The notes below the pieces were generated by a model, which searched no databases, had not been told where the DNA came from, and saw nothing but the letters and a program-made list of their open reading frames with translations. Position numbers and translations under genes: made by a program. From Amnibacterium sp. CER49 (GTDB lineage Bacteria; Actinomycetota; Actinomycetes; Actinomycetales; Microbacteriaceae): a stretch of 64,000 nucleotides of DNA. The stretch lies in contig NZ_JARVWQ010000002.1 of NCBI RefSeq assembly GCF_029846255.1, positions 930,001-994,000 of the forward strand, written 5' to 3'. This document shows positions 26,016 through 45,633 of the stretch, piece after piece (the stretch's first letter is position 1; each line of letters opens with the position of its first letter).

Positions 26016-27416
26016 TCAGGCGCCGGTGGTGCCGGAGACCGTGGGCCACGCGTTCGCGCGGATGAGCTTGCGGTTCGCGAACTCGCCGAGACCGAGCCGG
26101 CCGAGCTCGCGGCCGAAGCCCGAGCGCTTCGTGCCGCCGAAGGGCAGCTCGGGGGCGTCGGCGCCGACGATGTTCACGTAGACCATGCCGGCCTCGAGCC
26201 GGTCGGCCACCCGCTCCGCCTGCTCCCGGTCGGTCGTGAACACGTAGGAGCCGAGGCCGAACGGGGTGTCGTTCGCGACGCGCACCGCGTCGTCCTCATC
26301 GGCGACCCGGTACACGGTCGCGACGGGCCCGAAGAACTCCTCGCGGTAGACGTCGTTGTCGGGCGTCACCCCGACGAGCACGGTCGGCGGGAAGAACGTG
26401 CCGTTCCGCTTCCCGCCGAGCACCACGCGGGCGCCGCCCTCGACCGCCCGGTCGACCTGGGACTGCAGGCGCTCGGCCGCGGTCTCGGAGGAGAGCGGTC
26501 CGATCCGGGCCTCGTCGCTGCTCGGGTCGCTCGGCTCCACGGCCTGCAGGGCCGACGTGAACCGCTCGAGGAACGGCTCGTAGAGGTCGTCGACGACGAC
26601 GAAGCGCTTCGCGGCGTTGCAGGACTGCCCGGTGTTGTCGAGCCGCCCCGCAACGGCCGCCTCGACCGTGGCGTCGAGGTCGTCGGTGGAGAGCACGAGG
26701 AACGGGTCCGAGCCGCCGAGCTCGAGCACGACCTTCTTCAGGTGCTTGCCCGCGATCGCGGCGACGGCCGACCCGGCCCGCTCCGAGCCGGTGAGCGAGA
26801 CGCCCTGGATGCGCGGATCGCCGATGACCTGCTCGATCTGCTCGTTGGTGGCGTAGATGTTCACGTACGCGCCGTCGGGGAAGCCCGCGTCAGTGAACAT
26901 CCGCTCGATCGCGGCCGCCGACTCGGGGCACTGCGGCGCGTGCTTCAGGAGGATCGTGTTGCCGATCACGAGGTTCGGCGCCGCGAACCGGGCGACCTGG
27001 TAGTAGGGGAAGTTCCAGGGCATGATCCCGAGCAGCGCGCCGACGGGGCTCGTGCGGATGACCGCGTCGCCCTCGCCGAACGACAGCTCGATCGGCTGGT
27101 CCTTCACGAGGTCGGGGCCGGTGTCGGCGTAGTAGTCGATGATGTCGGCCGCGAAGCCGACCTCGTCGCGGGCCTGCTGCAGCGGCTTGCCCATCTCGCG
27201 CACGGCGATGCGCGCGAGCTCCTCCTGGCGGTCGCGGTGCAGCTGCGCGACGCGGCGCAGCAGGTCGGCGCGCTCGGCCGGCGTGCTCGTGCGGCCCCAG
27301 CCCTTCGCGGCCGCGGCGACGCGGGTCAGCGCGTCCTCGAGGCCGGCGGCGTCGATCTCGGGGTACTCCGCGACCTGCTCGCCGGTGGCGGGGTCGACGA
27401 CGGCGTAGATGCTCAT
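26016..27416 (-). CDS. Aldehyde dehydrogenase, probable 4-aminobutanal (gamma-aminobutyraldehyde) dehydrogenase
   Basis: A 466-residue NAD(P)-dependent aldehyde dehydrogenase. The Glu motif LELGGSDP is at about 232-239 and the catalytic Cys is in NTGQSCNAAKR near 271. MPWNFPYYQ and the C-terminal PFGGTKRSGFGRELG are intact. Overlap of its ATG with the putrescine oxidase stop (ATGA) points to oxidation of 4-aminobutanal to GABA, the step after putrescine oxidase. By sequence alone it also resembles SSA dehydrogenases, so substrate overlap with the second dehydrogenase is possible. It is the last gene of the operon and faces the strong hairpin. Confidence 0.85.
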   Translation of the reverse strand: MSIYAVVDPATGEQVAEYPEIDAAGLEDALTRVAAAAKGWGRTSTPAERADLLRRVAQLHRDRQEELARIAVREMGKPLQQARDEVGFAADIIDYYADTGPDLVKDQPIELSFGEGDAVIRTSPVGALLGIMPWNFPYYQVARFAAPNLVIGNTILLKHAPQCPESAAAIERMFTDAGFPDGAYVNIYATNEQIEQVIGDPRIQGVSLTGSERAGSAVAAIAGKHLKKVVLELGGSDPFLVLSTDDLDATVEAAVAGRLDNTGQSCNAAKRFVVVDDLYEPFLERFTSALQAVEPSDPSSDEARIGPLSSETAAERLQSQVDRAVEGGARVVLGGKRNGTFFPPTVLVGVTPDNDVYREEFFGPVATVYRVADEDDAVRVANDTPFGLGSYVFTTDREQAERVADRLEAGMVYVNIVGADAPELPFGGTKRSGFGRELGRLGLGEFANRKLIRANAWPTVSGTTGA

Positions 27417-28810
27417 GCGTGCTCCAGGGTGGGGACGGTCTGCCCGGCGGGACGGCCGCCGAGCTCGTTCGATACTGCCGCAGCGGTGGCGTGGCCGACA
27501 CGGATCGCCCCGTCGACGTGCTGGTAGCCGTGGCCGGCGAGGTCGCTGCTCGAGAACCGGATCGGGCCGACGGGCGCGCGCAGGTCGGCGCCGTAGCGGG
27601 CGAGGCCGCCGAGGTCGAAGCTCGCGGCGTAGGCGCCGCGGGTCCAGTCCTCGACGCCCCAGTCGCTCTCGTAGTAGACGACGGGGTTCAGGGCCCGCTC
27701 GCCGTAGTAGTGCGACAGCGAGGTGAGGATCTGCTGCCGGCGCTCCTCGGCCGACAGGGCGAAGACGCGGTCGGCGGCCTCGTCGGAGACGAAGCCGACG
27801 AGCGTGCCGCGGGTGTCGCCGTGGTTCGTGTTGTCGTACGCCTCGTGCACGAGCTCGTACGGGCTGAACGCCGTGCCGGACAGGCCGTCCTCGCGCCAGA
27901 ACGGCGTCTCGTAGACGGCGTGCACCTTGATCACGAAGCCCATGGAGAGGTGCTGGTGCAGCTGCTGCTGCCGGCGCGGCAGCGGCGGCTCGAAGCCGAT
28001 GCGGGTGATGAGAGTCGGCGGCACGGCGAGGATCGCGCGCTTCGCGTGCACCTCGAGGTCCTCGGTGATCACGACGACGCCCTGCTCGTCCCAGCGCACG
28101 GTGCGCACCGGCTGGTTCAGGTGCACCTCGTCGCCGAGCCGCTCGGCGAGCAGGATCGGCACCTGCTGCAGGCCGCCGACGACGCGCTCGTCGAGGATGA
28201 AGTCGGCGTCGACGAGGTTGCTGAAGCTGCCCGCGGACGCGGCCATGAGCAGCGCCTGCAGCGCCGAGAACGCGTGCGCGGGCTTCGTGAGCATGGCGCC
28301 CGCGATGAAGAGGCCGATGTTGTCGCGCGCCTCCTGGTCGTCGGTCTGCTCCTCGAGCCAGCGCGCGAACGACACCCGGTCGAGCTCGACGGCGCGCGGA
28401 TGCGCCCACGGCTGCTCGGGGTCGACCTCGGCCACGAGGGCGTCGAGCTGCTCGATGAGGCGGACCATCTCGCGCTCGGTCTCGGGCTTCACGGGGAAGA
28501 TCTCGCCGGTGAAGCGGGTGAGGTGGCCGTCCTTCGCGATGTAGACGCTGTCGCCGTCGCGGTAGCGCTTGTACGTCTCGAGACCGAGGTCGTTCAGGGT
28601 GGCCTTCAGCGCGTCCTGGTCGGGCGACACCCACTGGCCGCCGATCTCGAGGATCGCGCCGTCGATGTCGTCGGTCTTGAGGCGCCCGCCGACGCGCTCG
28701 CGCGCCTCGAGGACGGTGACGGAGTAGCCGGCGGCGACGAGGTCGGTCGCTGCCGTGAGGCCGGATGCGCCGGCGCCGACGACGACCACGTCGCGGTCGA
28801 TGCGGTTCAC
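27413..28810 (-). CDS. puo: Putrescine oxidase (flavin monoamine oxidase family)
   Basis: A 465-residue FAD amine oxidase. The N-terminal dinucleotide motif is VVGAGASGLTAATDL (about 10-24) with ARERVGGRL. The C-terminal part (FWREDGLSGTAFSPYELVHEAYDNTNH, VVYYESDWG, GGLARYGADLR, GYQHVDGAIRVG) closely resembles the Rhodococcus/Kocuria putrescine oxidases I know. It converts putrescine, O2 and water to 4-aminobutanal, NH3 and H2O2 in the cytosol. It starts 9 bases after the gabD stop, within one operon. No catalase gene is in the window. Confidence 0.9.
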   Translation of the reverse strand: MNRIDRDVVVVGAGASGLTAATDLVAAGYSVTVLEARERVGGRLKTDDIDGAILEIGGQWVSPDQDALKATLNDLGLETYKRYRDGDSVYIAKDGHLTRFTGEIFPVKPETEREMVRLIEQLDALVAEVDPEQPWAHPRAVELDRVSFARWLEEQTDDQEARDNIGLFIAGAMLTKPAHAFSALQALLMAASAGSFSNLVDADFILDERVVGGLQQVPILLAERLGDEVHLNQPVRTVRWDEQGVVVITEDLEVHAKRAILAVPPTLITRIGFEPPLPRRQQQLHQHLSMGFVIKVHAVYETPFWREDGLSGTAFSPYELVHEAYDNTNHGDTRGTLVGFVSDEAADRVFALSAEERRQQILTSLSHYYGERALNPVVYYESDWGVEDWTRGAYAASFDLGGLARYGADLRAPVGPIRFSSSDLAGHGYQHVDGAIRVGHATAAAVSNELGGRPAGQTVPTLEHA

Positions 28811-28819
28811 GTGTGTTCC

Positions 28820-30325
28820 TTACTTCGACGCCGGCAGAGCCGGCGCGGTGCTGTCGGGGATGAGGCTGTACTTCGTCGTCAGGTACTCGAGGATGCCCTC
28901 GGCGCCGCCCTCGCGGCCGAACCCCGACTCCTTGACGCCGCCGAACGGGGCGGCGGCGTTCGAGACGACGCCGGTGTTGATGCCGACCATGCCGGTCTGC
29001 AGCCGCCGGATGAGGCGGTGCGCGCGGGCGAGGTCGCGGGTGTACGCGTAGGCGACGAGGCCGTACTCGGTGTCGTTCGCGAGGCGCACGGCCTCGTCCT
29101 CGTCGTGCACGGGCACGATCGCGACGACGGGGCCGAAGATCTCCTCGCGGAGGATCGCGCTGCCCGGTCGCACGCCGGTGAGCACGGTCGGCTCGAGGAA
29201 GAGGCCCTCGCCGCGCCTGCCGCCCGTGACGAGCGTCGCGCCGCGCGCGACCGCGTCGTCGACGAGGGCGAGCGCCTTCGTCACCGCGGCGTCGTTGATG
29301 AGGGGGCCGATGCCCACCCCCTCCTCGGTGCCCGGACCGAGTCGGAGCGCCCGGATGCGCTCGGTGAGCCGGCCCGTGAACCCCTCGACGAGCGACTCGT
29401 GCACGAGGAACCGGTTCGCGGCGGTGCAGGCCTGCCCAATGTTGCGGAACTTCGCGAGCATCGCGCCGGCGACGGCCGCATCGAGGTCGGCGTCGTCGAG
29501 GACGAGGAACGGCGCGTTACCGCCGAGCTCCATCGACACCCGCAGCACGTGCTGCGCCGCCTGCGCGATCAGCCGCCGGCCGACGGCGGTGGAGCCCGTG
29601 AACGACAGCTTCTTCAGGCGCGGGTCCGCGAGCAGCGCCGCCGTGATGCCTGCGGCGTCCGTCGTCGTCACCACGTTCACCACGCCGGCGGGGACGCCCG
29701 CCTCCTGAAGGAGCGCGGCGAACCGGAGCGTCGTCAGCGGGGTGAGCTCGGACGGCTTGATCACCACGGTGCAGCCGGCCGCGAGCGCGGGCGCGATCTT
29801 CCTCGTCGCCATCGCGAGCGGGAAGTTCCACGGGGTGATCAGGTAGCAGGGCCCGACCGGGTCGTGGCTGACGAGCACCTGACCGGTGCCCTCGGGGTTC
29901 GATCCGGCGGTGCCGCGGATGCGCACGGCCTCCTCGGCGAACCAGCGCAGGAACTCGGCACCGTAGGCGACCTCGCCGCGGGACTCCGCGAGCGGCTTGC
30001 CCATCTCGAGCGTGATGAGCAGGGCGAGCTCGTCGCGGTGCTCCGTGACGAGCTCGAAGGCGCGCCGGAGGATCTCGCTGCGCGCGCGCGGCGCGGTCGC
30101 CGCCCAGGACGCGGCTGCGGAGTCGGCCGCCTCGAGCGCGGCGAGGGCGTCGGCGGGGGTCGCGTCGGCGATCGCGGCGAGCACGTCGCCGGTCGCCGGG
30201 TCGGTGACCTCGATGCGGCCCGAGCCGCCACCGGGGGTCCACGAGCCGCCGATCAGCAGCCCGTCGGGCACGGCGGCGAGCACGGCGTCCGCCGCCTCGG
30301 TGCGGGCGGGTGCGGTGAGGGTCAC
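28820..30325 (-). CDS. gabD: Succinate-semialdehyde dehydrogenase
   Basis: A 501-residue aldehyde dehydrogenase of the GabD type. [21 protein letters not shown] (Glu near 270) and [12 protein letters not shown] (Cys near 304) form the active site, and the end is [15 protein letters not shown]. It oxidises succinate semialdehyde to succinate, completing GABA degradation. The GTG at 30325 overlaps the stop of the glutamate dehydrogenase gene by 4 bases (GTGA). About 25 extra N-terminal residues precede the usual LIGGSW start. Confidence 0.9.
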
Positions 30326-31590
30326 GGGTACAGCCCCCGCAGCCGGTGCGCCTCGGCGACCCGCTCGACCGCGAGCACGGTCGCCGCGGTGCGCAGGCTG
30401 AGGTCGCGTGCCTGCGCGGTGCCGGCGACGGCGTCCCACGCGGCGAGCATGCGCGACTCGAGCTTCGCCTCGACCTCCTGCGCGTCCCACCAGTAGGCCT
30501 GGTTCGCCTGCACCCACTCGAAGTACGACACGAGCACGCCGCCGGCGTTCGCGAGGATGTCGGGCACGACGAGCTGGCCCTGCTCGGCGAAGACCCGGTC
30601 GGCGGCGCCCGTCGTCGGGCCGTTCGCGCCCTCGACGATGACCGGGGCGGTCACCCGGGCGGCGTTCCCCTCGTGCAGCACGCCCTCGAGTGCGGCGGGC
30701 ACGAGCAGCTGCACCGGCAGCTCGAGCAGCAGGTCGCGGTCGAGCGCGTCGGCGCCCGGGAAGCCGACGACGGAGCCGGTGCGGTCGACGTGGTCCGAGA
30801 GCGCCTCGACGTCGAGGCCCGAGGTCGCGGTGACGGCGCCGTACTGGTCGCTGACCCCGACGACCTGCACGCCCGCCTCGGCGAGGAAGCGCGCGGTGTC
30901 GCGGCCGACCTTCCCGAAGCCCTGCACGGCCGCCGTGGCGCCGTCGATGCGGATGCCGCGCGAGCGGAGGGCCGCGAGGGCGATGTGGACGACGCCGCGT
31001 GACGTGGCGCTCGCGCGGCCCTGCGAGCCGCCGAGGCTGATGGGCTTGCCCGTCACGATGCCGGGCACCGTGTAGCCGGAGTTCACCGAGTAGGTGTCCA
31101 TCATCCAGGCCATCGTGCGCTCGTCGGTGCCGACGTCGGGCGCCGGGATGTCGCGCTCCGGACCGATGATCGGCAGGATCTCGCTCGTGTAGCGCCGCGT
31201 GACGCGCTCGAGCTCGCCGGCGGAGTGGCAGCGCGGGTCGATGTTCACGCCGCCCTTCGCGCCGCCGTACGGCACGTCGAGCAGGGCGCACTTCCACGTC
31301 ATCCACATGGCGAGCGCCCGCACCTCGTCGAGCGTCACGTGCGGGCTGTAGCGGAGACCGCCCTTCGCCGGTCCCCGCGAGACGTTGTGCTGCACGCGGT
31401 AGCCGGCGAAGAGGTGCACCTCGCCGTCGTCGGCGCGGAGCGGGACGGCGACCGTGAGCTCGCGTCGCGGGGTCGCGAGCATCGCATGGAGGCCCTCGTC
31501 GTACCCGAGCAGCTCCGTCGCCGTCGCGAGCTGCGCGCGGGCGTCGTCGAGGGCGCTCGGCGCGGGCGCCTCGAGCGTCGGGGTGCTCAT
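30322..31590 (-). CDS. gdhA: Glutamate dehydrogenase (Glu/Leu/Phe/Val family)
   Basis: A 422-residue dehydrogenase. The substrate-binding GPAKGGLRYSP (about 74-84), catalytic-Lys segment PYGGAKGGV (about 106-114) and NAD motif VQGFGKVGRDTA (about 215-226) are clear, as is P-A-A-L-E-G later. Position inside the gab operon, overlapping gabT upstream and gabD downstream by 4 bases each, suggests that it deaminates the glutamate made by GabT and returns 2-oxoglutarate with ammonia release. Branched-chain amino acid dehydrogenase activity is less likely because family length and the K-G-G-L-R region fit glutamate enzymes. Confidence 0.87.
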   Translation of the reverse strand: MSTPTLEAPAPSALDDARAQLATATELLGYDEGLHAMLATPRRELTVAVPLRADDGEVHLFAGYRVQHNVSRGPAKGGLRYSPHVTLDEVRALAMWMTWKCALLDVPYGGAKGGVNIDPRCHSAGELERVTRRYTSEILPIIGPERDIPAPDVGTDERTMAWMMDTYSVNSGYTVPGIVTGKPISLGGSQGRASATSRGVVHIALAALRSRGIRIDGATAAVQGFGKVGRDTARFLAEAGVQVVGVSDQYGAVTATSGLDVEALSDHVDRTGSVVGFPGADALDRDLLLELPVQLLVPAALEGVLHEGNAARVTAPVIVEGANGPTTGAADRVFAEQGQLVVPDILANAGGVLVSYFEWVQANQAYWWDAQEVEAKLESRMLAAWDAVAGTAQARDLSLRTAATVLAVERVAEAHRLRGLYP

Positions 31591-32945
31591 GCGGCGCGCA
31601 CCGTCTCCACGAGCAGGTCGAGGGCCTCGGCGAGCAGCTCCTCGGGGATCGTGAGCGGCGGCAGCAGGCGGATCACGTTGCTGTCGGTGCCGCAGGTGAG
31701 CACGATGACGCCCTGCTGGTGCATCCGCTGCGCGACGCGGGAGGTGAGCGCCGCGTCGGGCTCGGTGGTGCCGGGCACGACGAGCTCGATGGCCTGCATG
31801 GCGCCGCGGCCGCGCACGTCGCCGACGCGAGGGTCGTCGGCCCGCAGGGCGCGGAGGCGCTGCTGGATCATCTCGCCGAGGCGCTGGGCGCGGTCGGCGA
31901 GGCGGTCCTGCTCGAACGTCTCGATCGCCGCGAGCGCGGCGACGCAGGCGAGCGGGTTGCCGCCGTAGGTGCCGCCGAGGCCGCCCTTCTGCGCGGCGTC
32001 CATGAGCTCGGCGCGGCCGGTGACGGCCGAGAGCGGCAGGCCGCCGGCGATGCCCTTCGCGGTGACGACGAGGTCGGGGACGATGCCGAACTGCTCGCTC
32101 GCGAACATGGTGCCGGTGCGCGCGAAGCCGGTCTGCACCTCGTCGGCGATGAACACGACGCCGTTGCTCTGCGCCCAGTCCGCGATGCCCGGCAGGAAGC
32201 CGTCGGCGGGCACGACGAAGCCGCCCTCGCCCTGGATGGGCTCGATGAGCACCGCGGCGAGGTTCTGCACGCCCACCTGCTTCTCGATGAGGTGGATGGC
32301 GCGCTCGGCCGCCTCGGCTCCCGACAGGCCGTCGCGGAACGGGTAGGACAGCGGCACCCGGTAGACCTCGGGCGCGAACGGGCCGAACCCGTTCTTGTAC
32401 GGCTGGTTCTTCGCCGTGAGCGCCATCGTGAGGTTCGTGCGCCCGTGGTAGGCGTGGTCGAAGACGACGACGGCCTGCTTGTGCGTGGCCGCGCGGGCGA
32501 TCTTCACCGCGTTCTCGACGGCCTCGGCGCCCGAGTTGAAGAGGGCGCTGCGCTTCTCGAAGTCGCCGGGGGTGAGGCGGTTGAGCGCCTCGCAGACCTC
32601 GACGTACGAGTCGTACGGAGCGACGGTGAAGCAGGTGTGCGTGAAGCGCTCGACCTGCTCCTGCACGGCGGCCACCACGCGGGGCGCCGCGTTGCCGACG
32701 CCGACGACCGCGATGCCGGAGCCGAGGTCGATGAGCGAGTTGCCGTCGACGTCGACGACGACGCCGCCGCCCGCAGCCTGGACGAAGACGGGCACGGTCT
32801 CGCCGACCGCGGCCGACACGGCCGCGGCGCGGCGGGTGAGCCACTCGCGCGAGCGCGGGCCGGGGATCTCGGTGACGAGGCGGCGCTCCTGCGGCAGCTC
32901 GGGGCCGCCGCGGCCGGTCGAGGTGGGCTGGTCGAGCAGCGTCAT
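31587..32945 (-). CDS. gabT: 4-aminobutyrate (GABA) aminotransferase
   Basis: A 452-residue class III PLP aminotransferase. FNSGAEAVENAVKIARAAT, FDHAYHGRTNLTMALT, IADEVQTGFARTG and the PLP Lys in VTAKGIAGGLPLSA are all present and characteristic of GabT. It transfers the amino group of GABA to 2-oxoglutarate, giving succinate semialdehyde and glutamate. The ATG at 32945 has AAGGGG 9 bases upstream; an ATG at 32954 is the alternative. It is the first gene of the operon, divergent from the PucR-type regulator. Confidence 0.92.
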   Translation of the reverse strand: MTLLDQPTSTGRGGPELPQERRLVTEIPGPRSREWLTRRAAAVSAAVGETVPVFVQAAGGGVVVDVDGNSLIDLGSGIAVVGVGNAAPRVVAAVQEQVERFTHTCFTVAPYDSYVEVCEALNRLTPGDFEKRSALFNSGAEAVENAVKIARAATHKQAVVVFDHAYHGRTNLTMALTAKNQPYKNGFGPFAPEVYRVPLSYPFRDGLSGAEAAERAIHLIEKQVGVQNLAAVLIEPIQGEGGFVVPADGFLPGIADWAQSNGVVFIADEVQTGFARTGTMFASEQFGIVPDLVVTAKGIAGGLPLSAVTGRAELMDAAQKGGLGGTYGGNPLACVAALAAIETFEQDRLADRAQRLGEMIQQRLRALRADDPRVGDVRGRGAMQAIELVVPGTTEPDAALTSRVAQRMHQQGVIVLTCGTDSNVIRLLPPLTIPEELLAEALDLLVETVRAA

Positions 32946-33060
32946 GGCGAGCATCCCCTTGCAGTCGGTACGTCGCTCCCGCCGGATCTCGGCGGTGAGA
33001 CCCGTCCAGGGTAGGCCGGTCGCCTGAACGTCACCCATGGCCCGTCGGGCGATCCCGACG

Positions 33061-33082
33061 TGTACTTTCGCCGCTTTGTACA
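33061..33082. promoter_or_regulatory. Candidate operator in the gabT/pucR divergent region
   Basis: TGTAC (33061-33065) and GTACA (33078-33082) form an inverted pair separated by 12 bases, within the 150-base interval between gabT and the regulator start chosen here (33096). The spacing and position suit a dimeric regulator. If the regulator starts at a GTG at 33060 the site would be coding, so the assignment is tentative. Confidence 0.35.
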
Positions 33083-33095
33083 GCACACTGATGCG

Positions 33096-34646
33096 GTGCC
33101 CACCGCAGTGCGCGACCTCCTGTCGAACCCCGCCCTCGCCCTCGAGCTGCTGACCGACGAGTCGCGCCTCCCGACCTCCGCCCTCGACGCCGCCGTCGTG
33201 TGGGTGCACAGCTCGGACCTGCCGGACCCCACTCCGTTCCTCGAGCCCGGGCACGTGCTGCTCACGGGCGGCAGCCAGTTCGTGGGCCGACCCGAGGAGG
33301 CGGTCCGCACCTACGTCGGGCGGCTCGCCGACCGTGGAGTCGTCGCGCTCGGCTTCGGGTCCGGCCTCGCGCTCGACGGGCCGCCGCCGGCGCTCGTCAC
33401 GGCCTGCTGCGCGGCCGGCCTCCCGCTCTTCGCGGTGCCGTATCGGATCCCGTTCATCGCGATCGCGCAGCACGCCGCCGAGCTGGTGGCCGAGGAGGCC
33501 AACGAGCGGCGCAACTGGGCGCTGAAGGCGCAGCGGGCGATCTCGCTCGCCGCGCTGAAGCCGAACGGGCTCGCGGCGACGCTCGCCGAGGCGTCGCGGC
33601 AGCTCGACCGCTGGGTCATGCTGCTCGGCACCGGCGGCGTCATGGACCGGGCGCACCCCGCGGACCCGGGCGAGGAGGTGCTCGCCGTCGTGCGCGAGGA
33701 GGCGGCCCTGCTGCTGAAGCGGCGCCGGCGCAGCAGCGCGAGCGTCGAGACCGGCGGCGAGCACGTGCTGCTGCAGACGCTCGGCTCCGGGCAGACGCTC
33801 CGGGGCGTGCTCGCGGTCGGTGGCGCCGCGCGGCTCGACGACGCGGGCCAGCAGGTGCTCGACGGCGTAGTCGCGATGGCGGCCCTCGCGCTCGAGGCGA
33901 GCCACGAGCTCGACCGCGCCCGGTCGCTGCTCCGGACCGGCCTGTGGCACGCGCTGCTCGCGGGCGAGGTCGAGCTCGTCCGGCAGGTCGCCGAGGAGGT
34001 GTGGTCGCCGCTCCCGGCGGATCCCGTGGTGGTCGCGCTGCTGAAGCCCGAGGGCGTCGCGGTCGAGGCGATCGAGGAGCTGCTCGAGGCCCGGGCCGCC
34101 GACCGCCCGGGCTCCCTGTTCTTCGCGGCGTTGCCGTCCGGCATCGCGCTCGCCTGCTCCCCCGCCGCAGGCGACCTGCCGGAGCTGCTCGTCGAGGCCT
34201 TCGAGGTGACCGTCGGGGTCTCCGCCCCGGTCCCCCTCGACGCGCTGCGTCGCGGGCTCGAGCAGGCGCAGGAGGCCCTCGAGCGCACCCGGCCCCTCGC
34301 GCCGCGGGTCGTCACGTTCGACGAGCTGACGCGCGACGGGGTGCTCGCGCTGCTGACCCGGATGGACGTCACGCGCGTCGCGGAGGCGATGCTCGAGCCG
34401 CTCACCGCGTATGACGACGAGCACGGGGCGGCGCTCGTGCCGACCCTCCGCGTGTGGCTCGAGCACGACGGCCACGCCGAGCGGGCCGCCGCGGTGCTCG
34501 GCGTGCACCGGCACACGCTCCGCGCGCGCATCCAGCAGTGCGCGCGCCTGCTCGGCCGCGACCTCGACGAGTTCGCCGCCCGGGCGGACGTCTGGGCGGC
34601 GCTCCTCGCGCTCGACGCGCCCGTCCGGGCCGCAGCGGCCCGCTAG
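33096..34646 (+). CDS. PucR-family (CdaR-like) transcriptional regulator of polyamine/GABA genes
   Basis: A 516-residue regulator. The N-terminal PucR ligand-like domain (LPTSALDAAVVWVHSSDLPDPTPFL ... LLTGG) spans ~15-140, a central GGDEF-like region follows, and the C-terminal PucR helix-turn-helix (LEHDGHAERAAAVLGVHRHTLRARIQQCARLLGRDL) is at about 450-485. Regulators of this type adjoin and control gab and purine/amine catabolic genes in actinobacteria. It is divergent from gabT and convergent with potC. GTG 33096 is preferred; GTG 33060 would add 12 residues. Neither has a strong ribosome site. Confidence 0.85.
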   Translation: MPTAVRDLLSNPALALELLTDESRLPTSALDAAVVWVHSSDLPDPTPFLEPGHVLLTGGSQFVGRPEEAVRTYVGRLADRGVVALGFGSGLALDGPPPALVTACCAAGLPLFAVPYRIPFIAIAQHAAELVAEEANERRNWALKAQRAISLAALKPNGLAATLAEASRQLDRWVMLLGTGGVMDRAHPADPGEEVLAVVREEAALLLKRRRRSSASVETGGEHVLLQTLGSGQTLRGVLAVGGAARLDDAGQQVLDGVVAMAALALEASHELDRARSLLRTGLWHALLAGEVELVRQVAEEVWSPLPADPVVVALLKPEGVAVEAIEELLEARAADRPGSLFFAALPSGIALACSPAAGDLPELLVEAFEVTVGVSAPVPLDALRRGLEQAQEALERTRPLAPRVVTFDELTRDGVLALLTRMDVTRVAEAMLEPLTAYDDEHGAALVPTLRVWLEHDGHAERAAAVLGVHRHTLRARIQQCARLLGRDLDEFAARADVWAALLALDAPVRAAAAR

Positions 34647-34659
34647 CGCCGGGCCCGGC

Positions 34660-35472
34660 CTAGATGCGGCCGCCCGCCGCATCGCCGCCGAAGCGCTGCG
34701 CGAGCCAGACGGGCACCACCGCGACCACGGTGAGCACCGCGGCCACCACGTTCACGACGGGCGCCTGGTTCGGCCGGAACAGGTTGCCGAAGATCCAGAT
34801 CGGCAGGGTCTGCACCGTCGGGCCCGCGGTGAACGTCGTCACCACGATCTCGTCGAAGCTGAGCGCGAAGGCGAGCAGGGCACCCGCGACGAGACCGCCG
34901 CGCAGCAGCGGGAATGTGACGTGCCGGAAGGTCTGCCAGGTGCCGGCGCCGAGGTCCGCCGACGCCTCCTCGAGCGAGGTGCCCATCCGCCTGAGGCGCG
35001 CCTGCACGTTGTTGAACACGATGACGATGCAGAACGTCGCGTGCCCGACGATGACCGTGCCGAGGCCGAGCGTCACCCCGTAGGGACCGAGGAACGAGGT
35101 GAACGTCGCGTTCAGCGCGATGCCCGTGACGATGCCCGGGAGCGTGATCGGCAGCACGAGCAGGAAGCTGATCGAGCGGCGCCCGAAGAACCGGTGCCGC
35201 TGCACGGCGAAGGCGGCCATCGTGCCGAGCACGAGCGCGATGGCCGTGGCGGCGAGGCCGGCGACCACCGAGGTGCCGAGCGCGGCGAGCGCGCCCTGGC
35301 TGCTCGCGGCGGCCGCCCACCAGCGCAGCGTGAGACCGCTCGGCGGGAACCCGAAGGTGCGCGACGCGTTGAACGAGTTCAGCACGACGAGCGCGAGCGG
35401 CACGTAGAGCGCGGCGAGGGTGAGCACCGCCCAGACCGTGAGCGTGCGGCGGAGGCCGGACGACAGGCGCAT
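34660..35472 (-). CDS. potC: Polyamine-type ABC transporter permease (PotC-like)
   Basis: A 270-residue inner-membrane permease with six helices and the EAA loop ASADLGAGTWQTFRHVTFPLL at about 170-190, typical of binding-protein-dependent importers. Order and similarity to the PotC half (VLNSFNASRTFGFPPSGLTLRWW at the N-terminus) support spermidine/putrescine import. The ATG at 35472 overlaps the potB stop by one base (TGATG). It ends 13 bases from the PucR gene stop. Confidence 0.9.
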   Translation of the reverse strand: MRLSSGLRRTLTVWAVLTLAALYVPLALVVLNSFNASRTFGFPPSGLTLRWWAAAASSQGALAALGTSVVAGLAATAIALVLGTMAAFAVQRHRFFGRRSISFLLVLPITLPGIVTGIALNATFTSFLGPYGVTLGLGTVIVGHATFCIVIVFNNVQARLRRMGTSLEEASADLGAGTWQTFRHVTFPLLRGGLVAGALLAFALSFDEIVVTTFTAGPTVQTLPIWIFGNLFRPNQAPVVNVVAAVLTVVAVVPVWLAQRFGGDAAGGRI

Positions 35473-36344
35473 CAGACGTTCTCCAGGGCGCCGGTGCGGC
35501 GCATCGCGACGAGGTAGAGCACGATCGCGACGAGCGGGATCAGCGACAGCGCGGCGGCGAGCGGCTGATCGTTGGCGGTGACGAGCTCGCCGTAGATGAT
35601 GTTGCCGAGCATCTGCGTCTTGCCGCCGACGATCGTGACGGCGATGTAGTCGCCGAGCGACAGCGAGAAGGTGAAGATCGACCCGGCGGCGACCGCGGGG
35701 AACACGAGCGGCAGCACCACCCGCCGCAGGGTCGTGAATCCGGAGGCGCCGAGGTCCGCGCTCGCCTCGAACAGCGAGTCCGAGACCCGGTCGAAGCCCG
35801 CGAACACCGGGATCACCATGTAGGGCAGCCACAGGTAGGCGAGCGTCAGCACCGTCGCGGTGATGCCGTAGCCCGGCGTCGCCCCGCCGAGGACGAACGA
35901 GAGCGGTCCCGACGGCGACAGCAGCACGCGCCACGCGTACGCCTTGACGAGGTAGCTCGCCCAGAGCGGCGTGGTCACCGCGACGACGAGGGCGAGCCGC
36001 GCCGCAGGGCGCGCGACCTTCGCCATGAAGAGCGCCATCGGGACGGCGACGACGGCGTCGATCAGGGTGACCCCGAGCGCGACGAGCACGGTGCGCAGCG
36101 TCACCTGCCAGTAGAGGCCGCTCCCCACGACCTCGAGCAGGTTGCCGCTCGTGTAGACGGGCACGACGGCGCCCGTGAACGTGTTCGTGCTCCAGAACGC
36201 CGAGAGCAGCAGCACCGCCATCGACCCGAGGTAGGCGATGACGAGCCAGGCCATCGGTGGCAGGAGCAGTCCTGCGAGGCGCGCCCGCGAGCCGGCGGAG
36301 TCGAGCGGCGATCCGCTCCTCCGCCGGCCCGCCGGCAGGGTCAC
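35472..36344 (-). CDS. potB: Polyamine-type ABC transporter permease (PotB-like)
   Basis: A 290-residue permease with six helices. ASADLGASGFTTLRRVVLPLVFP at about 196-218 is the EAA loop that contacts the ATPase. LLPPMAWLVIAYLGSMAVLLLSAFW is helix 1 after a basic N-terminus. The GTG at 36344 overlaps the stop of the binding-protein gene (GTGA). It forms the import channel with PotC. Confidence 0.9.
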   Translation of the reverse strand: MTLPAGRRRSGSPLDSAGSRARLAGLLLPPMAWLVIAYLGSMAVLLLSAFWSTNTFTGAVVPVYTSGNLLEVVGSGLYWQVTLRTVLVALGVTLIDAVVAVPMALFMAKVARPAARLALVVAVTTPLWASYLVKAYAWRVLLSPSGPLSFVLGGATPGYGITATVLTLAYLWLPYMVIPVFAGFDRVSDSLFEASADLGASGFTTLRRVVLPLVFPAVAAGSIFTFSLSLGDYIAVTIVGGKTQMLGNIIYGELVTANDQPLAAALSLIPLVAIVLYLVAMRRTGALENV

Positions 36345-37555
36345 CCCTTGATCTGCTGCCACTTCGTGACCCACTCGGAGTAGTCGGTGCAGCCGTTGCC
36401 GGAGCCGTCGACGCACTGCTTCTGCGGCGTGGTCCAGTAGTGGATCCTCGACGCGTACGCGGCGTCGGTGGCGTGGTAGGTGGCGCAGAAGGACTTGTCG
36501 CTCGTCTCGGTGCACGCCTTCGTCTGCGCGGGCGCCTCGCCGAACCACTCGGCGACCTGCGCGTTCACCTTCGGCGACGTGATCCAGTTCATCCACCGGT
36601 ACATGCAGTTCGGGTGCTTCGCCTTGCTCGACACCATCCAGGTGTCGGACCAGCCGGTCGCGCCCTCCTTCGGCAGCACGGTGGCGACGGGCACCTTCTT
36701 GTCCGAGGCGATGAGGTTCGCGATCACCTGCCAGGTGGTCCCGACCTCGGTGCTGCCGGACTCGAACGCCTGGACCGCCTTCGTGTAGTCGGCCCAGTAC
36801 TCGCCGACGTTCGCGTTCTGCTGCTTGAGGAGCGTCACCGCGGCGTCGAGCTGCTTCTCGGTGAGCGAGTACGGGTCCTTGATGCCGAGCGACGGGTTCG
36901 TCCGCATGAGGTAGAGGGCGGCGTCGGCGATGTAGATCGGCGAGTCGTAGGCCGTGACCTTGCCCTTGTAGGGGCCCGCCTTGTCGAACACCACGCTCCA
37001 CGAGTCGGGCTTCGGCGTCACGACCTTCGGGTTGTAGAGCAGCACGTTGGCGCCCCAGCCGTGCGGGATGCCGTACATGGTGCCCTTCACCGAGTTCCAC
37101 GCCTTGTTCTTGAGGAACGACGAGATCGAGGCGTAGTTCGGCACGAGCGAGGTGTTCACCGGGGCGACGTCGCCCGCGTAGATGAGGCGCAGCGTCGCGT
37201 CGCCGGAGGCGGAGACGCCGTCGTACTGCCCGGTGCGCATGAGCTGCACCATCTCGTCGGAGGTGTTGCCGATCTTCACGTTGACGTGGCAGCCGGTCTG
37301 CTGCTCGAAGGGATGCACCCAGTCGACGGTCTTGTCGTTCGAGCCGTCCTCGGCGTAGCCGGCCCAGGCGATGATGTTGAGCGCGCCCTCGCCCGCGCCG
37401 AGCTTCTTCAGCTCGGCGACCTTCGGCGGCTGGGCGCCGCCGGTGCCGCCCGCGGAGCCCCCCGAGGTGGTCGTGGCGGTGGAGCAGCCGGTCAGCGCGA
37501 CGGCGAGCACCATCGAGGCGGCGAGCGCCGTGCGGCGCAGCAGGGTTCGGGTCAT
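36341..37555 (-). CDS. potD: Polyamine-binding lipoprotein (PotD-like)
   Basis: A 404-residue substrate-binding lipoprotein. The signal peptide (MTRTLLRRTALAASMVLAV) ends at a lipobox LTGC with Cys near residue 24, followed by a Gly/Ser/Thr linker. The mature part starts LNIIAWAGYAEDGS, the PotD/PotF strand with the W-x-G-Y signature, and continues with YDGVSASGD, IPHGWGANVLLYN and the ASDTWMVSS-like C-lobe. It carries extra Cys residues near the end (QCVDGSGNGC), likely a disulfide. It should deliver putrescine or spermidine to PotBC. Confidence 0.9.
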   Translation of the reverse strand: MTRTLLRRTALAASMVLAVALTGCSTATTTSGGSAGGTGGAQPPKVAELKKLGAGEGALNIIAWAGYAEDGSNDKTVDWVHPFEQQTGCHVNVKIGNTSDEMVQLMRTGQYDGVSASGDATLRLIYAGDVAPVNTSLVPNYASISSFLKNKAWNSVKGTMYGIPHGWGANVLLYNPKVVTPKPDSWSVVFDKAGPYKGKVTAYDSPIYIADAALYLMRTNPSLGIKDPYSLTEKQLDAAVTLLKQQNANVGEYWADYTKAVQAFESGSTEVGTTWQVIANLIASDKKVPVATVLPKEGATGWSDTWMVSSKAKHPNCMYRWMNWITSPKVNAQVAEWFGEAPAQTKACTETSDKSFCATYHATDAAYASRIHYWTTPQKQCVDGSGNGCTDYSEWVTKWQQIKG

Positions 37556-37581
37556 GTCGGACTCCTCTTCGAGCGGACGGT

Positions 37582-38625
37582 TCAGGAGGCGAGCGCGTGC
37601 ACGGCGGACTCGTGCCACGCGAGGACGACTGGGGCGCCGCGCGTCAGGTCCGGCAGCGCGTCGGCCTCGGCGTTCAGCAGCACGGCGGCGAGGGTGGTGC
37701 CGGCTGCGTCGACGAGGACGCGGGTGGTGGCGCCGGCGTAGACGACCTCGGCGATCGTGCCGGAGACGCGCCGCGCCTGAGGCGGCACGGCGGCGTCGGG
37801 ACCGAGCACCGTGATCTTCTCGGGCCGCACCGCGTGCACGCCCTCGCGGTCGAGCAGCGCCTGAGCGACCCGGCCCTCGAGGATGTTCGAGGTGCCGACG
37901 AACTCGGCGACGAACCGCGACGCGGGCCGCTCGTAGACGTCGGCGGCGTCGCCGACCTGCTCGATGCGGCCCTGGTTGAACACCGCGAGCCGGTCGCAGA
38001 GGGTGAGCGCCTCGTCCTGGTCGTGGGTGACGAAGACGAACGTGATGCCGACCTCGCGCTGGATCGCCTTCAGCTCGACCTGCATCTGCTCGCGGAGCTT
38101 CAGGTCGAGCGCGCCGAGGGGCTCGTCGAGCAGCAGCACGCGGGGCCGCACGACGAGCGCGCGGGCGAGCGCGACGCGCTGCCGCTGGCCGCCGGAGAGC
38201 TGCACCGGGCGCCGGGCGCCGAAACCGGAGAGGCGCACCATCTCGAGCGCCTCGCCCGCGCGCTTCGTTCGCTCCGCGCGCCCGACGCCACGGACGCGGA
38301 GCCCGTACTCCACGTTCTGCTGGACCGTCATGTGCGGGAACAGCGCGTAGTCCTGGAACACGGTGTTCACGTCGCGCTTGAACGGCGGCAGCGCCGTGGC
38401 GTCGACGCCGCCGAGCCGGACGGTGCCCGCGGTCGGCTGCTCGAAGCCCGCGATCATGCGCAGCACGGTCGTCTTGCCGGACCCCGACGGCCCGAGCATC
38501 GCGAACAGCTCGCCGTCGGGGATCTCGAGGTCGACGCCGTCGACCGCGACGACGTCGCCGAAGGTCTTGCGGATGCCCTCGAGGGCGATCCCGGGCGAGG
38601 CGGGGCGCGCCTGGTCGCTCGTCAC
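37582..38625 (-). CDS. potA: Polyamine-type ABC transporter ATPase (PotA-like)
   Basis: A 347-residue ATPase with Walker A GPSGSGKTT (about 43-51), Q-loop FQDYALFPH, signature LSGGQRQRVALARAL, Walker B LLLDEPLGALD and H-loop VTHDQDEAL. A C-terminal TOBE domain (after residue ~250) is present. The GTG at 38625 has AAGGAG upstream. It is the first gene of potA-potD-potB-potC, with 26 bases before potD. A hairpin separates it from the amidase gene. Confidence 0.92.
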   Translation of the reverse strand: MTSDQARPASPGIALEGIRKTFGDVVAVDGVDLEIPDGELFAMLGPSGSGKTTVLRMIAGFEQPTAGTVRLGGVDATALPPFKRDVNTVFQDYALFPHMTVQQNVEYGLRVRGVGRAERTKRAGEALEMVRLSGFGARRPVQLSGGQRQRVALARALVVRPRVLLLDEPLGALDLKLREQMQVELKAIQREVGITFVFVTHDQDEALTLCDRLAVFNQGRIEQVGDAADVYERPASRFVAEFVGTSNILEGRVAQALLDREGVHAVRPEKITVLGPDAAVPPQARRVSGTIAEVVYAGATTRVLVDAAGTTLAAVLLNAEADALPDLTRGAPVVLAWHESAVHALAS

Positions 38626-38723
38626 GGTGCTCCTTCGGACCGGTCCTGCCGCGGCGGCTCGCACCGCGACGAGGTCAGGGTAGGGCCAGCCGGGGGCTCG
38701 GCATCAGTCCGCGCAGTACACCT

Positions 38724-38756: not shown

Positions 38757-40775
38757 CTAGACCCCGCCGACGGTGCGCAGCTCACCGGCTGCGGCGCCCG
38801 TCGCGTCGACGGCGGTGACGACCACGAGCGAGCCGTACGGACCGCGCCACTCGGTGTGCGGCACGGCGTGCGCGTCCGGCGGCAGCACCGCCTCGGCGGC
38901 GAAGCCGTCCCCGTCGCGGCCGACCGGCACCTCGGCGCCGGCGACCGTCACCCGCACCTCGGCGGCCGAGCCCGCCGTGACGGTGCCGGCCACCGCGACG
39001 CGGATGCCGTCCGGGCCGGCCTCGGCCGTGGCGTCGACGGCGAGGCGGGGCGGCTCGGCCGAGCGACGGGAGGGCGACCGCGGCGGTGCGGCGATCCGAT
39101 CACCCGGCAGGGAGGGGGTGCGCGGCGGGGCGGTGCGCCGTTCGCGGAGCGCCTCCGCGGCGGCGCCGAGCAGCAGGAGGGCGGTGTCGTCGAAGGCGCG
39201 GCCGAGGATCGTGAGGCCGACCGGCATCCCGATGTCGTCCATCAGCCCCATCGGCACGGTGACGGTCGGCAGGCCGAGGTGCCGGGGCACGAGGTTGCCG
39301 TTCGCCACCCAGACGCCGTTGCGCCACGCGTCCTCGGCCGATCCCTCGTCGACGTCGGCGTCGGCGCGGCCGACGTCCGCGAGGGCGGGGAAGACGACGG
39401 CGTCGAGGCCGAGACGCGCCATCCACTCGTCCACGTCGACGCGCCGGGCCTCGTCGAGGCCGCGGAGCCCCTCGGCGAGCGCCGGGATGTCGGCGAGCGC
39501 CGGCACGCCCTGCCGCGCCCGGCCGACGTACTGGCCGATGTCGAAGTCGTACTCGCCGTAGCGGTCGGGCAGCGCGCCCGTCGCGAGCGGCGAGAGCAGC
39601 GCGGGGTCGGCGTCGGCGAGGCGGGAGAGCGCCGGGTCGCCGTTCGCCTGGAGGAAGTCGTCGAGTGCCCAGATCGACAGGTCCCAGAGCTCGCTCTCGA
39701 GGTACTGCTCGGGCACGAGGCCGCGCTCCACCATCGTCCGCGCGCCGGGGCGGTCGCGCTCGTAGTTCGACACCGCAGGGAAGTCGGTCTCGATCACCTC
39801 AGCACCCGCCGCCTCGAGGTCCTCGCGCATCCGCTCCCAGAGCGCGAGCACGCTCGGCCGGGTCCGGATGGGCTCGGTGGCCTCGTCGTCGCGGCCGATG
39901 TACATGCGGGGCACGCCGAGCCGCTTCCCGCGCAGCGCCCCCGGATCGGCGAGCGCCGCGTACGAGGCGGGGCGCAGCGCCGACGCCGGCGGGATCGGGA
40001 TCCACGGCTGCACGCGCCAGAAGTCGCCGCGCGTGCGGTCGTCGTCGGCGACGAGCTCGTCGAGCAGCGCGAGCAGGTCCGCCATGGTGCGGGTGTGCGG
40101 CACGACGACGTCCATCGTGGGCACGAGCGGCCAGTTGCCCCGGATCGAGATCACCCCGCGCGACGGGGTGTAGGCGACGAGCGCGTTGCACGACGCGGGC
40201 GCCCGCCCGCTCGACCAGGTCTCCTCGGCGAGCCCGAACGCGGCCATGCTCGCCGCGGTGGCGACGCCGGAGCCGTTCGACGAGCCGGACGCGAACGCCG
40301 AGGAGAGGTACTCGGCGTTGTACGGGCTCTCCGCGCGGCCGTAGAGACCGCGCTGCATGCCGCCGTTCGCGAGCGGCGGCATGTTCGTGAGGCCGACGAG
40401 CACGGCGCCGCCCGCCCGGAGCCGCTCGATGGCGTAGGCGTCGGCGCCGGCGACGAGGTCGCGGAAGGCGGGCGACCCCGCTGCGACGACCATGCCCTTC
40501 GCGGAGTAGCTGTCCTTCGCCGTGAACGGGATGCCGTCGAGCGGCCCCAGGAGGCGTCCCGCCGCGCGGCGCGCGTCGGCGGCGCGGGCCTCGGCGAAGA
40601 CCTCGGGGTTCAGCTCGACGACGGCGTTCAGCCTCGGGCCGGATCGGTCGTACGCGGCGATGCGGTCGAGGTAGCGGCCGACGAGCTCGACGCAGGTGAG
40701 GACCCCGGCGTCGAGGGCGGCGCGCAGGTCGGCGATCGACGCCTCGACGAGCTCGAAGGGGGCGCCGTCGCTCAT
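38757..40775 (-). CDS. Amidase-signature enzyme, candidate N-carbamoylputrescine amidase
   Basis: A 672-residue amidase-signature hydrolase. The catalytic triad is visible: Lys in PFTAKDSYSAKG (about 86-97), the cis-Ser in ASGSSNGSG (about 165-173) and the Ser nucleophile in TWSSGRAPAS (about 188-197). A ~120-residue C-terminal extension after ~545 looks beta-rich and is absent from the usual 450-500-residue enzymes. Its ATG overlaps the agmatine deiminase stop (ATGA), so it should act on that product or on a close relative. The normal enzyme for that step (AguB) is a nitrilase-family protein, so this would be a substitution; that is inference. Confidence 0.8.
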   Translation of the reverse strand: MSDGAPFELVEASIADLRAALDAGVLTCVELVGRYLDRIAAYDRSGPRLNAVVELNPEVFAEARAADARRAAGRLLGPLDGIPFTAKDSYSAKGMVVAAGSPAFRDLVAGADAYAIERLRAGGAVLVGLTNMPPLANGGMQRGLYGRAESPYNAEYLSSAFASGSSNGSGVATAASMAAFGLAEETWSSGRAPASCNALVAYTPSRGVISIRGNWPLVPTMDVVVPHTRTMADLLALLDELVADDDRTRGDFWRVQPWIPIPPASALRPASYAALADPGALRGKRLGVPRMYIGRDDEATEPIRTRPSVLALWERMREDLEAAGAEVIETDFPAVSNYERDRPGARTMVERGLVPEQYLESELWDLSIWALDDFLQANGDPALSRLADADPALLSPLATGALPDRYGEYDFDIGQYVGRARQGVPALADIPALAEGLRGLDEARRVDVDEWMARLGLDAVVFPALADVGRADADVDEGSAEDAWRNGVWVANGNLVPRHLGLPTVTVPMGLMDDIGMPVGLTILGRAFDDTALLLLGAAAEALRERRTAPPRTPSLPGDRIAAPPRSPSRRSAEPPRLAVDATAEAGPDGIRVAVAGTVTAGSAAEVRVTVAGAEVPVGRDGDGFAAEAVLPPDAHAVPHTEWRGPYGSLVVVTAVDATGAAAGELRTVGGV

Positions 40776-41809
40776 CGCGAGACCCCCGCCGCCGGCTGCT
40801 GCTGGGTGATGCAGTGGATGCCCCCGCCGCGGGCGAGGATCGGCCGCGCCTCGACGGCGACGACCCGACGGCCGGGATAGACCGACTCGAGCACCTCGCG
40901 GGCGCGGCCGTCGGCGACGTCCTCGCCGTAGGAGCAGGCGACCACGCCGCCGTTCACGGCGAGATGGTTCACGTAGTTCCAGTCGACGAAGCCGTCCTCG
41001 TCGCGGATCCGGGCGGGTCCCGGCACGTCGACGATCGTGAAGGGCTCCCCCTCGGCGTCCACCGCGGCCTCCAGCACCTGGCGCAGCCCGCGGGTCACCT
41101 CGAAGTCCGGGTGCTCGCGGTCGTCCTGCCGGTGCACGAGCAGCATGCCGGGCGCGGGGACCGTGAGGATCATGTCGATGTGCCCGCGGGTGCCGAAGCG
41201 CTCGTAGTCGCGGGTGAGGCCGCGCGGCAGCCACACGGTGGTCGTCGTGCCGAGCGTGCGGGCGAGCTCCGCCTCGACCTGCTCCTTCGTCGCTCCGGGG
41301 TTCCGGTGCGGGTCGAGCTGCACGGTCTCCGTGACGAGGACGGTGCCGCGGCCGTCGACGTGGATCGCGCCGCCCTCCTGCACGAGCGACGACGGCACGA
41401 CCTCGGCGCCCGCGGCCTCGCCGACGAGCCGGCCGAGGAGCGCGTCGCGATCCCACCGGGCCCAGTCCTGCGCGCCCCAGCCGTTGAACACCCAGTCGAC
41501 CGCGCCGAGCCGGCCGTCCTTTCCCGTCACGAAGGTCGGCCCCGAGTCGCGGAGCCAGAAGTCGTTCAGCGGCGCCTCGAGCAGCTCGACCTCGGACGAG
41601 AGCATCCGCCGGGCCCGACCCCGCTCGACCGGGTCGACGAGCATGGTCACCGGCTCGAACTCGAGCACCGCGTGCGCGACGGCGGTCCACGCCGCGTACG
41701 CCTCGTCGGCCTCCGCCTGCGTCGCGCCGAGCGTGTCGTTCGGGCGCGGGAACGCCATCCAGGTGCGCTCGTGGCGCTCCGTCTCCGCCGGCATCCGCCA
41801 GTCCGCCAT
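40772..41809 (-). CDS. aguA: Agmatine deiminase (peptidyl-arginine-deiminase-like)
   Basis: A 345-residue enzyme of the agmatine deiminase/porphyromonas-type PAD family. MPAETERHERTWMAFP (about 5-20), LNDFWLRDSGPTFV (about 81-94), GHIDMILT and the C-terminal catalytic Cys motif GGGIHCITQQQP (Cys near 333) are the hallmarks. It hydrolyses agmatine to N-carbamoylputrescine and ammonia. The ATG at 41809 has a GGGGAG site and removes a spurious upstream extension. It is the first gene of a two-gene operon with the amidase, divergent from TetR. Confidence 0.9.
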   Translation of the reverse strand: MADWRMPAETERHERTWMAFPRPNDTLGATQAEADEAYAAWTAVAHAVLEFEPVTMLVDPVERGRARRMLSSEVELLEAPLNDFWLRDSGPTFVTGKDGRLGAVDWVFNGWGAQDWARWDRDALLGRLVGEAAGAEVVPSSLVQEGGAIHVDGRGTVLVTETVQLDPHRNPGATKEQVEAELARTLGTTTTVWLPRGLTRDYERFGTRGHIDMILTVPAPGMLLVHRQDDREHPDFEVTRGLRQVLEAAVDAEGEPFTIVDVPGPARIRDEDGFVDWNYVNHLAVNGGVVACSYGEDVADGRAREVLESVYPGRRVVAVEARPILARGGGIHCITQQQPAAGVSR

Positions 41810-41914: not shown

Positions 41915-42517
41915 GTGGACACCCGCCGCGCCGCCCGCAAGACCCCGGACGAGCGCGACGGCGAGATCCGGGGCGCCGCCCGGTCGATCGCCCTCGAGCA
42001 GGGGCTCGTCGCCGTGACGCAGCGCGCGGTGGCCGCCCGGATCGGGGTCGCTCCGGCGCTCGTCACGCACTACCGGTCGAGCATGGAGGGACTCGTCGTC
42101 GACACGTTCCGCGCGATCGTCGCCGCGGAGCTCGACGAGGTGCGGGGCGCCACGCAGCAGGGCACGGCGCGCGAGCGGCTCCGCGCGCTCGTCGCCACGG
42201 CGCTCGACCCCTCGCGCGACGCGGTGACCGCGGTCTGGGTCGACGCCTGGAGCCTCGGCCGCCGGAACGCCGCGCTCGCCGCGGCGGTGCGCGAGCAGGC
42301 CGACGCCTGGCAGCGGCACGCCGAGGAGCTCGTGACGACCGGGGTCGCCGCCGGCGAGTTCGCCGACGTCGAGCCCGCGCGGATCGCCTGGCTGCTGCTC
42401 GGGCTCGTCGACGGGCTGAACGCGCAGTCGGTGATCCACGACCGGCACGATCCGCGCCGGGCCGCCGTCGTCCTCAGCGCGGTCGAGCGGGAGCTCGGGG
42501 TGGCATCCGGGGCCTGA
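41915..42517 (+). CDS. TetR-family repressor, probable regulator of agmatine deiminase genes
   Basis: A 200-residue TetR protein. The helix-turn-helix (AARSIALEQGLVAVTQRAVAARIGVAPALVTHYRSSMEGL) fills about residues 20-60, and the C-terminal domain resembles BetI-type repressors (AVWVDAWSLGRRNAALAAAVREQ). The GTG at 41915 gives the usual length. It is divergent from aguA-amidase with the TGTTGA/TCAACA palindrome between. The effector may be agmatine or a product. Confidence 0.88.
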   Translation: MDTRRAARKTPDERDGEIRGAARSIALEQGLVAVTQRAVAARIGVAPALVTHYRSSMEGLVVDTFRAIVAAELDEVRGATQQGTARERLRALVATALDPSRDAVTAVWVDAWSLGRRNAALAAAVREQADAWQRHAEELVTTGVAAGEFADVEPARIAWLLLGLVDGLNAQSVIHDRHDPRRAAVVLSAVERELGVASGA

Positions 42518-45000: not shown

Positions 45001-45633
45001 ATGAGCAGCACCGCGCCGTTCGCCGAGACCGGCGAGCTGACCTGGCGGGAGCAGAAGAAGCTCCGCACCCGGCAGGCCCTGCACGAGGCAGCCCGGCGGC
45101 TGGTGCTCGCCGACGGCCTCGCCGTGACCGTCGAGGAGATCTGCGCCGAGGCCGGCGTCTCCCCCCGCACCTTCTTCAACTACTTCCCGTCGAAGGCGGC
45201 ATCCGCCCTCGGCCTGCCCGACCTCGTCATCACCGACGAGCAGCGGGCCGCCTTCCTCGGCAGCGGCGGGAACATCGTCGCCGACCTCTGCGTGCTCGTC
45301 GGCGCGGTCTTCTCGGTCGCGACGGGCGAACGGCTCGCCGACAAGGCGGCCATGCGCGAGCTCGTGCAGCAGCGACCCGAGCTGAAGCCCGAGCTGTTCT
45401 CACGGCTCGCCGTCATCCGCCGCGGCTTCTTCGACATCGCCGCCGAGCGCACCGACGCGGAGCGCGCGCGGCATGCGGCGACCCTCGTGCTCGCGGCGCT
45501 CTCCGAAGCGATGGAGGGCGACGGCGACGGCGGGGCCGACCTCGGCGACCGACTGCTCGCGAGCGTGCGGGGCATGTGCGCCGTCGCGACGGAGCCCGCC
45601 ACCCCGGCGCTGCCGGCGCAGCTCGCCGGCTGA
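45001..45633 (+). CDS. TetR-family repressor of the DHA2 exporter
   Basis: A 210-residue TetR protein. REQKKLRTRQALHEAARRLVLADGLAVTVEEICAEAGVSPRTFFNYFPSKA (about 17-67) is the helix-turn-helix, with the F-F-N-Y-F-x-S-K ending common in this group. The ATG at 45001 follows GAAGGACC. It is downstream of the exporter and separated by the hairpin. It probably binds the TTGCA palindrome upstream of the exporter. Confidence 0.88.
   Translation: MSSTAPFAETGELTWREQKKLRTRQALHEAARRLVLADGLAVTVEEICAEAGVSPRTFFNYFPSKAASALGLPDLVITDEQRAAFLGSGGNIVADLCVLVGAVFSVATGERLADKAAMRELVQQRPELKPELFSRLAVIRRGFFDIAAERTDAERARHAATLVLAALSEAMEGDGDGGADLGDRLLASVRGMCAVATEPATPALPAQLAG

Follow-up and report, generated by a model that had tools for sequence, protein, structure and literature searches.

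A 64,000-nucleotide stretch of the Amnibacterium sp. CER49 genome, hereafter the window, encodes an agmatine deiminase (AguA) directly followed by an amidase-signature enzyme that we assign to AguY (Table 1). The window has a G+C content of 74%, and the host genome (3.36 Mb, two contigs) is listed as 100% complete. aguA starts at an ATG at 41809 with GGGGAG directly upstream. Its stop codon shares an ATGA with the aguY start, an overlap that a preliminary description had reported with correct coordinates, and the amidase gene thus adjoins aguA directly, as in known AguY members.

Table 1. Features of the window around the aguA-aguY pair.
Feature	Position	Strand	Evidence
aguA, agmatine deiminase	40772..41809	minus	345 aa; PF04371 3.3e-101
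aguA/aguY stop/start overlap	40772..40775	minus	shared ATGA
aguY, amidase-signature enzyme, long form	38757..40775	minus	672 aa, ATG at 40775; triad K87, S165, S189
AguY C-terminal extension	38757..39107	minus	residues 557-672 plus stop codon; a proline-rich linker precedes the conserved domain
TetR-type regulator, divergent from aguA	41915..42517	plus	Pfam TetR_N, TetR_C_6
Polyamine ABC transporter ATPase, PotA-like	37582..38664	minus	TIGR01187 360 bits, cut-off 355.6
Substrate-binding protein, YdcS/PotD-like	36341..37618	minus	NF041888 376.5 bits, under cut-off 725; start provisional, stretch scanned up to 37570
Permease, PotB-like	35472..36344	minus	NF007044 106.3 bits, under cut-off 348
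Permease, PotC-like	34660..35472	minus	NF007047 162.5 bits, under cut-off 326
PucR-type regulator	33060..34646	plus	PF07905, PF13556
4-aminobutyrate transaminase	31587..32954	minus	TIGR00700 600.6 bits, cut-off 506.65
Glutamate dehydrogenase family	30322..31590	minus	NF041398 500.9 bits, under cut-off 620
Succinate-semialdehyde/aminobutyraldehyde dehydrogenase family	28820..30325	minus	TIGR01780 551.2 bits, under cut-off 646.35
Putrescine oxidase, flavoprotein	27413..28810	minus	best PDB match 2yg3 putrescine oxidase, 673.5 bits, 1.6e-201

The coupling of the two genes recurs among relatives. AguA lies inside the fetched stretch in 24 of 80 fetched relatives, and the pair is tight in 23 of these; in the 24th (L053), AguA sits about 3 kb downstream. 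A candidate aguY start overlaps the aguA stop in all 23 tight pairs, 20 at -4 and 3 at -1. The closest fetched relative is an Amnibacterium metagenome bin. Fourteen Arthrobacter or Pseudarthrobacter loci have AguA and then AguY, so AguY may also perform this step in Arthrobacter sp. Rue61a, for which a 2012 genome paper assigned the carbamoylputrescine step to AguB (PMC3534580).

The surrounding genes look like a neighbourhood for agmatine and putrescine catabolism. The preliminary description placed a putrescine oxidase gene adjacent to the pair; it belongs to the same neighbourhood, but at a distance of 10 kb the word was loose. The divergent TetR-type protein is likely the local regulator of aguA-aguY, and a homologue occurs in 8 of the 24 loci with AguA nearby. 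The glutamate dehydrogenase family gene sits between those for GABA transaminase and semialdehyde dehydrogenase, and homologues of all three are grouped in two other loci (L041, L042). Beyond the TetR gene, an MFS-type transporter gene (42714-44927, plus strand), named by eye, encodes a protein that is Ala/Lys-rich over a long segment towards the C-terminus, and a second TetR-like gene, also named by eye, adjoins it (45001-45633).

The window AguA is filed as a distant branch of TIGR03380 and would work like AguA. It scores 276.3 bits against that model, under the 381.8 cut-off, as do the matches in 77 of 150 genomes from the window's bacterial family, none of which exceeds it. Its best PDB match is the agmatine deiminase 1vkp (1.2e-64), and both GHID and GGGIHCITQQQPA are present. 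RDSGPTF, EGG.IHVDG, GHID and IHCITQQQPA align with 1vkp, and these agmatine deiminase motifs include the catalytic Cys.

The amidase is an amidase-signature protein with a complete catalytic triad. It matches PF01425 (2e-52) and, over residues 7-556, the NCBIfam model NF005127 'amidase' (895.7 bits, cut-off 575). Lys87, Ser165 and Ser189 are invariant in 75 of 75 aligned rows of the family, and the two outgroup sequences have them too, bearing out the intact Lys-Ser-Ser triad of the preliminary description; their spacing agrees with the amidase-signature Lys-cisSer-Ser triad. Residues around the nucleophile read T/S-W/V-S-S-G-R across the AguY family, whereas the two outgroup amidases differ in this alignment. 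In an alignment of the window protein with 34 of 39 fetched long loci, the window AguY and the alphaproteobacterial rows keep R142, G146, R147 and E149. Its best PDB match is Tse8 (750 bits, residues 3-557), followed by a peptide amidase at 164 bits. This strong similarity to the validated AguY/Tse8 group was measured against Tse8 alone.

AguY is a recently described enzyme family. Li et al. reported in July 2025 that amidase genes neighbour aguA in members of the Proteobacteria and Actinomycetota, and named their products AguY (PMC12283126). The purified proteins of Shewanella oneidensis and Microterricola gilva hydrolysed N-carbamoylputrescine as efficiently as AguB, with kcat/Km values of 1.8e5 and 6.4e5 M-1 s-1 for the two enzymes. 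The window protein shares with AguY the amidase signature, the place beside aguA, known from Actinomycetota among others, and the predicted reaction. It differs from the two purified enzymes in size, having 672 aa against 568 (S. oneidensis) and 584 (M. gilva), with about 100 extra C-terminal residues that form a conserved domain. This exceeds a length near 570-585 aa; we kept the protein as AguY because PMC12283126 gives no length as a defining feature. AguB (TIGR03381, nitrilase family) has the same predicted reaction and the same operon place beside aguA, but belongs to an unrelated protein family.

Searches of the host genome revealed no competing AguB at the family cut-off. The preliminary description had seen no AguB in the window, and this now extends to the whole genome, where the best TIGR03381 score is 120.9 bits against a cut-off of 410.25. 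The three CN-hydrolase proteins fit best to deaminated-glutathione amidase (under cut-off), nitrilase (under) and Lnt (over); AguB is the best model for none. No putrescine transcarbamylase exceeds its cut-off in the genome (best 261 bits against 500). An agmatinase does (317 against 302 bits), so AguA-AguY is not the sole possible agmatine route; another protein of the ureohydrolase family (PF00491, 121 bits) is nearest to arginase, under the NCBIfam cut-offs. The genome has no OKR_DC_1 decarboxylase, and its only PF02784 protein is LysA. Since these searches (OKR_DC_1, PF02784) found no PLP-type arginine decarboxylase, agmatine probably comes from outside the cell, which, within the scope of PLP-type decarboxylases, makes a biosynthetic role of the pair less likely.

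AguY and an AguA-adjacent AguB-like gene exclude each other across the bacterial family. We searched the 150 genomes for AguA, AguY and AguB-like proteins, calling AguY in rows of at least 46% identity. Where a gene was split (G097, G146, G089 and several AguA genes), its second piece was not counted, nor was an incomplete G173 row at 48%; this cost no genome. AguA occurs in 77 of the 150 and AguY in 63: both in 57, AguA without AguY in 20, AguY without AguA in six and neither in 67 (Fisher p 2e-17, kinship ignored). A nitrilase resembling AguB lies next to AguA in 0 of the 57 AguA genomes with AguY and in 16 of the 20 without (p 4e-13, kinship ignored), and none of the 150 genomes combines AguY with such a gene. 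The four AguA genomes with neither partner are G031 (weak AguA, 115 bits), G122, G154 and G164; G122 was scored so with AguA and an AguB-like gene on two contigs. AguY starts within 6 kb of AguA on one contig, our definition of near, in 36 of the 63 AguY genomes; the two genomes sampled from the window's genus (G044, G125) each encode a short AguY at a distance from AguA. A stronger AguB-like nitrilase (230-262 bits), never adjacent to AguA, is present in 29 genomes that have AguA and in 40 that lack it (30 and 41 with two weaker rows, G122 and G040).

We searched 28 further genomes, reached through 28 of the 80 fetched loci. Each of the 14 Actinomycetota that carry AguY also has AguA, fragmented in one case. 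Nine of the 12 Alphaproteobacteria with long AguY have no AguA match (genome completeness not given): eight Mesorhizobium and one other alphaproteobacterium (L008, L009, L018, L024, L026, L027, L028, L036, L037), all retaining the invariant AguY motifs. AguB exceeds its cut-off in a single genome among the 28, that of the L074 Pseudomonas, which holds an AguY-like protein, AguA and AguB together, much as P. aeruginosa has Tse8; exclusion is thus not absolute outside the family. Two other loci, L142 (5610-6875) and L143 (5415-6512), carry AguA in genomes without AguY and without an AguB-like match at E 1e-45, and could possibly harbour a further replacement for the AguB step. The L142 gene lies beside homologues of GABA transaminase, dehydrogenase and PucR genes.

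Many AguY proteins carry an additional C-terminal domain. The Tse8 match of the window protein stops at residue 557 of 672, leaving about 115 extra residues; the preliminary description had estimated some 120, and the domain proves real and conserved. In an alignment of the window protein with 38 fetched long loci, the consensus near the domain end is H..HS.WRG.YGS.V, and the window version is HAVPHTEWRGPYGSLV. A profile of the domain matched one protein per genome, always AguY, in 10 genomes chosen for long AguY. Searches with 39 members retrieved no convincing Pfam relative (stray matches at E 0.003 to 0.07), and no convincing sequence relative emerged from the PDB (best E 0.35). The words 'C-terminal' and 'domain' are absent from the main text of PMC12283126. 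Mesorhizobium AguY has the same domain, and a profile restricted to the 31 alphaproteobacterial rows recovers the window tail with 60.8 bits (E 2.9e-19 in a small set). In Mesorhizobium, AguY with this domain mostly occurs without AguA.

Of the 63 genomes in the bacterial family that carry AguY, 25 have a match extending at least to residue 620. A single origin of the tail was considered; a rooted tree requires nine changes between long and short. Its 77 rows comprise the window, 30 of the 80 loci, L093-L121 except L100, 16 rows out of L125-L138 and L141, and an outgroup of two. Against the tail profile, 28 of 39 long rows match at E <= 1e-15, 13 of which, the window included, also built that profile; three match weakly and eight do not match. 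Because long rows carry different tails, length alone is a poor guide to tail history. The two published AguY enzymes lack the tail by their stated lengths, so it is dispensable for the reaction in those relatives. From sequence, we would guess at a beta-sandwich fold, and its conservation suggests that it perhaps serves in subunit assembly or as a lid. One tentative, rather doubtful proposal is that the tail is an undescribed AguY-specific module, the hallmark of a long enzyme class shared by Actinomycetota and Alphaproteobacteria. It might cap or assemble the enzyme or dock AguA, and might let AguY work without AguA on imported N-carbamoylputrescine or another ureido-amine.

Could the amidase act on another carbamoyl or amide compound, its place beside aguA being a regulatory convenience? 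The nine alphaproteobacterial genomes and the six genomes of the bacterial family with AguY and no AguA suggest that some AguY members may have another substrate, and in 27 of the 63 genomes with AguY, no AguA lies near it. A divergent AguY-like clade of the same bacterial family (L129, L130, L132, L134, L136, L137) points the same way: it keeps the triad, but positions 142/146/147/149 change from R/G/R/E to P/D/Y/R in 6 of 6 members, unlike all other rows. AguA is absent from five of their six genomes, and the remaining one (G121) contains AguA plus a standard AguY in addition to the divergent protein. From these substitutions, the clade is likely a paralogue with another substrate. The window protein retains the four residues, as do the alphaproteobacterial rows. 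The overlapping starts in every tight pair, the lack of any AguA-adjacent AguB-like gene together with AguY in the 77 AguA genomes, and the activity of two relatives on N-carbamoylputrescine (PMC12283126) make a different substrate for the window enzyme unlikely.

We consider it very unlikely that a nitrilase elsewhere in the genome performs the AguB step and leaves the amidase redundant. The candidate (C2:325191-325988) scores 121 bits against the AguB model. For this bacterial family the curated cut-offs are set too high: its AguA-adjacent AguB-like proteins, at 177-224 bits, also fall short, so the cut-off alone cannot dismiss the candidate. It nevertheless scores below every one of those proteins in the 150 genomes, lies far from aguA and fits nitrile_Arch better (139.6 against 116.5 bits for AguB, both under cut-off). 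The host-genome nitrilase of L004 (1402-2199), with nitrile_Arch as best model though far under cut-off, lies beside what by eye is an APC-type permease-like gene. The best PDB match raises another idea, that the window protein is an antibacterial toxin rather than a metabolic enzyme. Tse8 (PDB 6te4), a type VI secretion toxin of Pseudomonas aeruginosa, shares the aligned TWSSGR and RGxYGRAESPYN motifs, although its aligned chain stops where the C-terminal extension of the window AguY begins. Tse8 nests among AguY proteins, at 85% and 69% identity to the two purified enzymes, and is placed as an offshoot that descends from them (PMC12283126). It is secreted and encoded beside an immunity gene, not beside aguA (PMC12283126). 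The window gene overlaps aguA and adjoins polyamine catabolism genes, and its flanking genes, aguA and the PotA-like gene, are no candidates for an immunity gene; a toxin is extremely improbable here.

Together, these results support an AguA-AguY module for agmatine catabolism, a reading to which we assign a probability of roughly 0.88, with the amidase reaction and the pathway flow inferred. From homology and gene context, the window amidase is very probably an N-carbamoylputrescine amidase. AguA and AguY would convert agmatine to putrescine, used for food, and putrescine oxidase would yield 4-aminobutanal. Enzymes encoded in the same neighbourhood would then carry 4-aminobutanal to GABA, by GABA transaminase to succinic semialdehyde, and on to succinate. 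Agmatine or putrescine uptake would probably run through the neighbourhood's Pot-type transporter.

The preliminary description had proposed an undescribed replacement for AguB. Homology to the purified AguY enzymes, gene coupling and mutual exclusion give strong support to that function but not to its novelty, as AguY function has been known since 2025 (PMC12283126), with the conserved C-terminal domain missing from the main text of that report. The 150-genome sample supports, independently of that work, AguY replacing AguB beside AguA. A conserved, so far unstudied domain is present in many AguY proteins, and the existence of AguY-like relatives without AguA opens the idea of a second substrate to experiment. 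This branch, now called 'amidase' in the database, could be given a more precise name.
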